DNA of 10,994 nucleotides, taken from the NCBI GenBank assembly GCA_019236485.1, contig JAFAIY010000582.1, positions 1 through 10,994 of the forward strand, in the 5' to 3' direction. The DNA comes from Comamonas sp. (GTDB lineage: Bacteria > Pseudomonadota > Gammaproteobacteria > Burkholderiales > Burkholderiaceae_C). The notes under the pieces are model-generated. The model was not told the origin of the DNA, searched no databases, and saw only the letters and a program-made list of their open reading frames with translations. A program made the position numbers and the translations under genes. Shown one piece after another: positions 10,007-10,994 of this stretch (position 1 is its first letter; each line of letters begins with the position of its first letter).

Positions 10007-10120
10007 ATGTTTACCAAGATTCTGATTGCCAACCGCGGCGAAAACGGCCGCGCAGCGGACGTTTCGACAAATTGCCAGCCGCAATCCACGCAGTGGATTT
10101 CTGCACGCCCAGCTGTTTGA
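10007..10120 (+). pseudogene. Truncated duplicate of the pccA 5' end (37-codon stub)
   Basis: An ATG with an ideal ribosome binding site (AGGAG, 9994-9998, 8 nt away), 27 bp after the pccB stop, opens a frame reading [12 protein letters not shown], identical to the first 12 residues of the intact PccA. From codon 13 (10043) it leaves the PccA sequence completely and stops at TGA 10118-10120 after 37 codons. The 36 matching bases differ from the intact copy at 7 third-codon positions, all silent. This copy uses the C/G-ending codons typical of the neighbouring genes (ACC, AAG, GCC, CGC) and looks like the original operon-proximal start. The stop overlaps the ribosome binding site of the intact gene by one base, so translation of the stub could be coupled to pccA. 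Either a remnant of the old pccA start or a short leader ORF; the first is more likely. Confidence 0.75.
10083..10099 (+). repeat. 7-bp hairpin inside the pccB-pccA insert
   Basis: AATCCAC (10083-10089) and GTGGATT (10093-10099) pair perfectly around a GCA loop. It lies in the non-PccA part of the stub, 36 nt before the intact pccA ATG. No T-run follows, so it is not a standard terminator; it could affect mRNA stability or simply be part of the inserted DNA. Confidence 0.45.
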
Positions 10121-10134
10121 GGGAGATAAGAAGA

Positions 10135-10994
10135 ATGTTTACGAAAATCCTGATCGCAAACCGTGGCGAGATAGCGTGCAGAGTCATCGCCACCGCCCGC
10201 AAGATGGGCATCCAGACCGTGGCCGTGTATTCGGACGCAGACAAGGACGCCCGCCATGTGAAGCTGGCCGACGAGGCCGTGCACATCGGTGCCGCGCCCA
10301 GCCGCGAGTCCTATCTGGTGGCCGACCGCATCATCGCGGCCTGCAAACAGACCGGCGCCCAGGCCGTGCACCCCGGCTACGGCTTCCTTTCGGAAAACGA
10401 AGCTTTTGCCAAGCGCTGCGAAGAGGAAGGCATTGCCTTTATCGGCCCCAAGGCGCATTCGATTGCGGCCATGGGCGACAAGATCGCCTCCAAGAAGCTG
10501 GCCAACCAGGCCCGGGTCAACACCATCCCCGGCTACAACGACCCCATCGCCGGCCCCGAGCAGGCCGTGGAAATCGCCAAGGGCATTGGCTACCCGGTGA
10601 TGATCAAGGCCTCGGCCGGCGGCGGCGGCAAGGGCCTGCGCGTGGCCTATAACGACAAGGAAGCTTTCGAAGGTTTTGCGAGCTGCCAGAACGAGGCCCG
10701 CAACAGCTTTGGCGACGACCGCATCTTCATCGAGAAGTTCGTGCAGGAGCCGCGCCATATCGAGATCCAGATCCTGGGCGACAGCCACGGCAACGTGGTT
10801 TACCTGAACGAGCGCGAATGCTCGATCCAGCGCCGCCACCAGAAGGTGATCGAGGAAGCGCCTTCGCCCTTCATCAGCGACGAAACCCGCAAGGCCATGG
10901 GCGAGCAGGCCGTGGCCCTGGCCAAGGCCGTGCAGTACCAGAGCGCGGGCACCGTGGAGTTCGTGGTCGGCAAGGACCAGGACTTCTATTTCCT
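10135..10994 (+). CDS. pccA: Propionyl-CoA carboxylase alpha subunit (biotin carboxylase part), cut by the window end
   Basis: This subunit carboxylates its own biotin with ATP and bicarbonate and hands the carboxyl group to PccB. The first 286 residues are visible, out of roughly 660-680 expected. The biotin carboxylase N domain is [17 protein letters not shown] through [14 protein letters not shown] (79-92). The ATP-grasp domain has Lys116, Lys158, the glycine-rich loop AGGGGKG (161-167), HIEIQ (208-212) and the catalytic [19 protein letters not shown] (226-244). The biotin carrier domain lies beyond the edge. The start is ATG 10135 with AGGGAG (10120-10125) at 9 nt. The frame is open further upstream without an ATG or GTG, but homology begins exactly here. 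Codons 3-17 are odd for this neighbourhood (ACG, AAA, GCA, CGT, GAG, ATA, GCG, AGA) while codons 18 onward are ordinary, suggesting the 5' end was replaced. It is 155 bp downstream of pccB. Confidence 0.95.

Follow-up and report, generated by a model that had tools for sequence, protein, structure and literature searches.

The window, by which we mean the whole 10,994-nucleotide stretch of Comamonas sp. DNA analysed here, ends with a pccB-like carboxyltransferase gene followed by a biotin-carboxylase gene, and the beginning of the latter is encoded twice (Table 1). The same 12 residues are read from copy 1 and again from copy 2, the two differing at 7 of 36 nt, in seven codons, with every change synonymous; the initial annotation had described one 12-residue start encoded twice with seven silent differences, and a codon comparison bears this out. 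The frame opened by copy 1, behind a ribosome site (AGGAGA) seen by eye in the window, closes after 37 codons at a TGA (10118-10120), as had also been claimed, and the frame opened by copy 2, preceded by a GAGGGAG site, has no stop before the window ends and is matched by biotin-carboxylase families. The unusual codons that were said to run to about codon 17 of the second copy are likewise present in the sequence.

Table 1. Features at the pccB-pccA junction of the window (A1 and A2 are the alignments described in the text).
Feature	Position	Strand	Basis
pccB-like carboxyltransferase gene, upstream neighbour	8444..9979	+	ORF list; NCBIfam matches of carboxyltransferase type, the best mmdA, below cut-off
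Native pccB-pccA gap with ribosome site AGGAGA (9994-9999)	9980..10006	+	27-nt gap identical in single-copy G028, G013, G021, G030
Stub ORF, 37 codons and TGA, putative leader cistron	10007..10120	+	sequence; stop position conserved over 80 units
Copy 1 of the gene start, native DNA	10007..10042	+	comparison with single-copy relatives
Hairpin 1 (GAAAACGGCCGC-GCA-GCGGACGTTTC)	10040..10065	+	covarying pairs 1/11 in A1, 9/11 in the wider, fitted A2
Linker with recurring CAAATTGC element	10066..10082	+	alignment A1 and units read in context
Hairpin 2 (AATCCAC-GCA-GTGGATT)	10083..10099	+	two-sided changes in 5/6 pairs in A1; 98% paired over 87 distinct rows in A2
Antisense arm TCTGCACGC	10100..10108	+	exact reverse complement of 10174-10182; associated AGR codon
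GAGGGAG, ribosome site of the second start; overlaps the TGA that ends the stub	10119..10125	+	sequence
Main biotin-carboxylase gene (pccA by its neighbours) from the second, probably true start; runs off the window	10135..10994	+	family matches; alignment places the single start of relatives here
Copy 2 of the gene start, differing from copy 1 by synonymous changes	10135..10170	+	codon comparison
Codons 14-16 (GCG TGC AGA), pairing target of the arm	10174..10182	+	antisense comparison

The doubled gene start in the window is not chance. We scanned 1.6 Mb from four related genomes for stubs that mimic a gene start and obtained seven rows: two units of the stub kind, of which one is listed twice, a coding repeat, also listed twice, and two weak matches. 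The scan is not fully sensitive, as a known unit (L208), whose two starts lie one codon out of step, was missed. From the same scan came an in-frame repeat, 81 bp apart (LRIKPIPVRGMG), on the minus strand of L321 (G390) at about 9313-9394, which resembles an ordinary coding repeat. The genome that holds the window is a fragmented draft assembly of 672 contigs; an assembly error, which the initial annotation had allowed for, is very unlikely, because comparable stub-type features stand in the single-contig relatives G023, G390 and G351 and in named isolates. Acidovorax temperans DSM 7270 and Comamonas composti DSM 21721 are among the carriers of a unit.

A search for the pccB-pccA junction took in 61 genomes including the window's own, of which 59 matched, and the junction was read in the 30 other genomes that carry both genes on one stretch. 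A single start is found in 28 of these and a stub of the window kind in two, G023 and G008, where it sits in flanking DNA different from the window's; this argues that the stub arose or arrived more than once. Four close relatives (G028, G013, G021, G030) have a 27-nt gap identical to the window's and one start, so that the unit must have been inserted in the lineage of the window, the outcome by which, according to the initial annotation, an insertion would be recognised. In further relatives the gap is either short, at 9 to 32 nt, or between 0.47 and 1.9 kb long and filled with other sequence. Copy 1 is identical to the single start of the same four genomes at 35 of 36 nt and copy 2 at 30 of 36, and we take copy 1 to be native. 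The earlier suggestion that the 5' end was replaced by a homologous, diverged piece holds in that copy 2 is the more diverged of the two, but the label ‘foreign’ has to be qualified: when nine single-copy relatives were compared, one of them, G019, matched copy 2 better (33) than copy 1 (32), and the copy 2 piece may therefore stem from within the genus. We conclude from these alignments that the unit inserted after the split from the single-copy relatives, and that what had been the native start became the stub.

Junction length varies within the genus (L036, L041, L044, L060 and others), being often 9-32 nt and otherwise 0.47 kb or 1.25-1.86 kb; the long junctions hold other sequence, with a further open frame in three of the cases read. 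The G006 assembly breaks at this junction (the end of L062 and the start of L063), its pccB side ending in the repeat-like CACCCCCTGAGCGGCTCCGCCGCTTCCCCC, and the G008 unit, at the end of its gap (L041), shows CGTTTCTGTC twice together with a decayed stub start (MFTQICIANRSE).

Beyond this junction the unit recurs. Among the family, a strict pattern matched 13 times, in 12 of the 399 genomes and 7 of the 141 genera, its reversed control matching nowhere, and over a collection of 84,980 species it gave 21 matches on 20 stretches, from Acidovorax, Xylophilus, Extensimonas, Paenacidovorax, Paracidovorax, Polaromonas, Giesbergeria, Comamonas and unnamed bins. A covariance model built from 23 aligned units reached 86/399 genomes and 50/141 genera of the family (the list held 112 matches, all read in context but for 28, which were mostly the lowest-scoring), 17/53 genomes of the genus and 6/250 of the order, three of these six belonging to two other families; in the class, our negative control, it found 1/143, solely the window's own genome. 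Among 60 model matches examined, one per fetched region, all had an in-frame start before the unit and a second gene start behind it; this second start belonged to a biotin-carboxylase gene in 59 regions and to an unrelated Alpha-E gene (PF04168) in one. Since most genomes are without the unit, it must be dispensable.

Read from 5' to 3', a unit opens with a repeat of the gene start, which in most cases breaks off at the acidic residue of ANRG(E/D); hairpin 1, a linker near CAAATTGC, hairpin 2, the antisense arm, a ribosome site and the gene start itself then follow, over a length of 108-154 nt that is 1 modulo 3 in 51 of 80 units. The 80 units analysed fall into four classes by the residues after ANRGEI (ACR 65, AVR 8, ALR 4, AIR 3); they are the non-redundant part of 81 kept by a text filter that favours conserved stubs and that lost at least L041, L114, L115, L118, L120, L190 and L204. 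Tandem arrays occur, with three units in G146, G030 and G444 and two in G154, G383, G121, G272, G019, G682 and G681. These array loci (L158, L343, L217, L174, L181, L195, L111, L346, L349, L354), in some of which units are identical, form a natural dosage series. In G684, G687 and G019 the first stub begins MKK and the later starts read MITK, an arrangement consistent with the transfer of a unit together with its start, the older start being left as a stub.

The hairpin-1 pattern, allowing up to three mismatches in 61 relatives, matched exactly in two (G000, G023), and its remaining matches had three mismatches and were about as frequent in the reversed control; two of them (G033:C1 and G013:C52) later proved to be real units, and the G008 unit was missed. 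The idea that hairpin 2 is a repeat existing apart from the unit was rejected: its pattern matched 36 times, in 32/399 genomes, with five matches away from known units, and the four of these that were read looked like chance (the fifth is G323:C56). A phage origin was also rejected, as three phage matches of E 0.7 were irrelevant and the hairpin-1 pattern had no match in viral contigs. No Rfam family matched at the gathering score in 12 loci and window positions 9900-10400.

The two hairpins are supported by compensating changes. In alignment A1 (23 rows, not fitted to the structure) the covariation score was 0.263 against 0.121 after shuffling, none of 500 shuffles reaching the observed score, and the signal came mainly from hairpin 2 (5/6 pairs, against 1/11 in hairpin 1). 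Alignment A2 is wider (87 distinct rows) and was made to fit the structure; here 91.6% of cells were paired against 76.0% when shuffled (0/500 shuffles reached this) and 21-47% in slid controls, with 175 two-sided cells against 36.9 shuffled. The loop of hairpin 2 is often GCA. For the window's own fold, predicted stability was no better than that of shuffled sequences (z -0.26 and -0.12). At L186, L198 and L217 there seems, by eye, to be an extra hairpin between hairpins 1 and 2, with the stub frame open to a stop near the second start.

The position of the stub stop is conserved. It lies between -23 and +8 nt of the main ATG in 80/80 non-redundant units, whereas dinucleotide-shuffled inserts place a stop in that range in a mean of 46 and a maximum of 53 of 80. 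The stop is at +5 in 44/80 units. Forty of these units have Phe as the second residue of both starts, and all forty use TTT for it in the gene, a silent choice that creates the stop. Between stub and gene start, silent codon differences exceed the others by 209 to 16 (104 to 26 in codons outside the model); this excess is no proof of selection on the peptide, because two once-functional starts brought together would look alike. We do not claim such selection: in 45 pairs of 10 genus units the stub body sums to 114 amino-acid-changing against 16 silent codon differences, its peptide not being conserved, and copy 1 shows nine changing and no silent differences over the 45 pairs within the genus.

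The antisense arm generally fits the gene behind it. We measured it as the longest exact antisense run to the unit's own gene codons from ANRGEI on (33 nt), and its mean was 11.4 nt for the own gene against 8.5 for genes swapped within the class, the own gene scoring higher in 73/80 units (Wilcoxon p 1.4e-12) and no better than swapped in 7/80. At ten other gene windows the run was about 6 nt, and with shuffled inserts 5.75; arms of at least 9 nt were present in 59/80 units against 0-11 of 79-80 at those ten windows. The longest perfect arms reach 20 nt, that of the window 9 nt. Fit of the arm to copy 1 was weak (own -15.8, swapped -15.1 kcal/mol; own better in 45/80, p 0.03). In the window, arm TCTGCACGC pairs with GCG TGC AGA, and its being antisense to these codons explains the odd codons of copy 2. 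Ala14 is GCG in 8/8 units of the window type against 1/28 single-copy relatives, and Arg16 is AGA or AGG in 7/8 against 0/28 single-copy relatives and 1/57 other units, a pattern to which shared descent may contribute since the eight window-type units are related.

The Alpha-E gene of G205 shows the same layout on an unrelated protein. Here MLSRTADHLFWMSRYTERAE is encoded twice, with nine silent and no other codon differences in 20, the stub stop overlaps the second ATG, and a 17-nt arm is exactly antisense to the codons from 18 on. A probe matched 15/29 genomes of G205's genus; of the eight loci read, five have the two-start layout (G205, G831, G356, G844, G075) and three a single start. In the units of the four other species the stub ends at -6 and antisense runs extend to no more than 6-8 nt, and the rule of silent differences fails there, because they hold five silent and six changing codon differences in all.

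Taken together, these features make it probable, in our judgement, that the carboxylase is translationally coupled to the stub, the unit acting as a structured leader cistron. Translation would begin from the native ribosome site and proceed through the stub, which has the former gene start as its first 12 codons; the arm near the end of the stub would pair with early codons of the gene and so shut the second ribosome site and AUG within a helix; ribosomes translating the stub would open this helix and halt at or just before the second AUG; and the same or a following ribosome would then restart there. Translation of the stub, the blocking of direct starts by the helix and the restarting are what we infer from the layout. 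A review of coupling describes both an upstream ribosome that opens structure and a single ribosome that restarts (PMC12548453), and the layout of the unit allows both mechanisms. Counting against coupling are the window's fold, no stabler than shuffled sequence, and its short arm of 9 nt, the seven units whose arm fits swapped genes as well as their own, the Alpha-E units of the four other species, the unconserved peptide of the stub body and the absence of the unit from most genomes. The stub may be seen, then, as a recurring, folded and probably translated leader, which may pass ribosomes to the real start. The initial annotation had mentioned a translated leader as a minor option; of the readings it offered this one fits best, the frame, structure and arm being conserved, and the refuting condition named in that annotation points the same way, although the stub is present in only some relatives.

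Other readings account for parts of this evidence. That the arm stems from DNA template switching between inverted repeats during replication, and not from selection for RNA pairing, is possible though in our view doubtful: the direct-inverted-direct layout would be the footprint of such switching, the long perfect arms of up to 20 nt copy even rare codons, and template switching has been described as able to create and mend hairpins (PMC8794818); but it leaves the 80/80 stop positions and the gene-independent hairpin 2 unexplained, and some window-type arms hold wobble pairs or mismatches. We think it unlikely that the unit is a tolerated insertion, that is, a small duplication or transferred piece at a conserved site, for which coupling just rescues expression and whose frame and stop are kept lest the gene be silenced. 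The sporadic spread of the unit (86/399 in the family, 17/53 in the genus), the tandem arrays of two or three units, the native copy 1 beside a diverged copy 2 in the window and the MKK first stubs ahead of MITK starts all agree with it, yet two covarying hairpins, and an arm that tracks synonymous codons, exceed what frame rescue needs. Rather unlikely, too, is a mobile ‘start cassette’ of about 110-150 nt. Such a unit would spread between species and unrelated genes, insert just inside a conserved coding start, leave the old start as a translated stub, bring a new start and grow an antisense arm against its host gene, which would come to depend on the stub.

Hairpins that take up alternative structures according to stub translation or a metabolite, as in a transcription attenuator or a ligand-sensing leader, might explain why linker and hairpins are conserved between stub and gene and why the genes behind the unit are nearly all biotin carboxylases; with the same layout on an Alpha-E gene and no Rfam family matched, we regard this reading as improbable. 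The initial annotation had preferred the scar of a large, SXT-like integrative element that gave the gene a new 5' end and was then lost. This would suit the native copy 1 and diverged copy 2 of the window genome, but complete short units stand at many other places, the pattern matches read all have another start no more than about 140 nt on, save L120 (where the stretch ends after 68 nt), and no core was recognised at both ends: a comparison of junctions found just the coding motif ANRGE, differing by silent changes. The left-end pattern was able to find large elements too, and no integrase was recognised by eye among the translated window ORFs, four of whose proteins were scanned against families. 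Frame, structure and arm are conserved. The scar is not supported, and we hold it to be highly improbable.

If the coupling reading is right, a widespread leader device lies ahead of central carbon genes in a large bacterial family, as a natural counterpart of a design that synthetic biology made on purpose, and silent codons are tied to an antisense arm upstream of them. Genes preceded by 0, 1, 2 or 3 units would offer a natural series for distinguishing regulation from expression rescue, and genome annotation may misplace starts at these loci. Were the mobile cassette true instead, it would be a self-maintaining genetic element made of translation signals alone.

Our literature search, in which subscription journals were thinly covered, met no description that we recognised as this leader. 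The SXT element in prfC supplies a new start to its host gene, as the unit does, but the unit is only 108-154 nt long and no element or integrase was seen. The GeneTack ‘Biotin carboxylase’ translational-coupling cluster presumably consists of accB-accC pairs. It resembles the unit in placing coupling at a biotin carboxylase gene, and is a table row of 128 genes in 44 genera from a screen of adjoining frames; ‘duplicat’ does not occur in the text (PMC3711429). The Burkholderiales-1 motif (PMC2864571) is a candidate structured RNA of the same order, tabled without an Rfam accession; ‘carboxylase’, ‘Comamonas’ and ‘Acidovorax’ are absent from the main text, whose passages on the motif give no description of it, and a relation to the unit is conceivable.

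The mgtQ leader ORF of Salmonella mgtB (PMC8092293) is a small frame over alternative stem-loops that promotes translation of the next gene; it belongs to one operon, and the outline of that work mentions neither a copied start nor an antisense arm. Translationally coupled pairs and leader cistrons, as outlined in the review cited above (PMC12548453), share with the unit an upstream stop at or near the next start, and have structure round the second ribosome site such as the arm of the unit may form. Unlike them, as far as that outline goes, the stub of the unit copies the start of the following gene and bears an arm antisense to its codons, and the unit recurs on paralogues and on an unrelated gene. 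The synthetic bicistronic design with a fore-cistron (PMC5995908) likewise lets a leader peptide cistron hand ribosomes to a second start, whereas the unit is natural and made from a copy of the gene start. Set beside these systems, the unit is probably translational coupling in a new form: a recurrent structured leader cistron.
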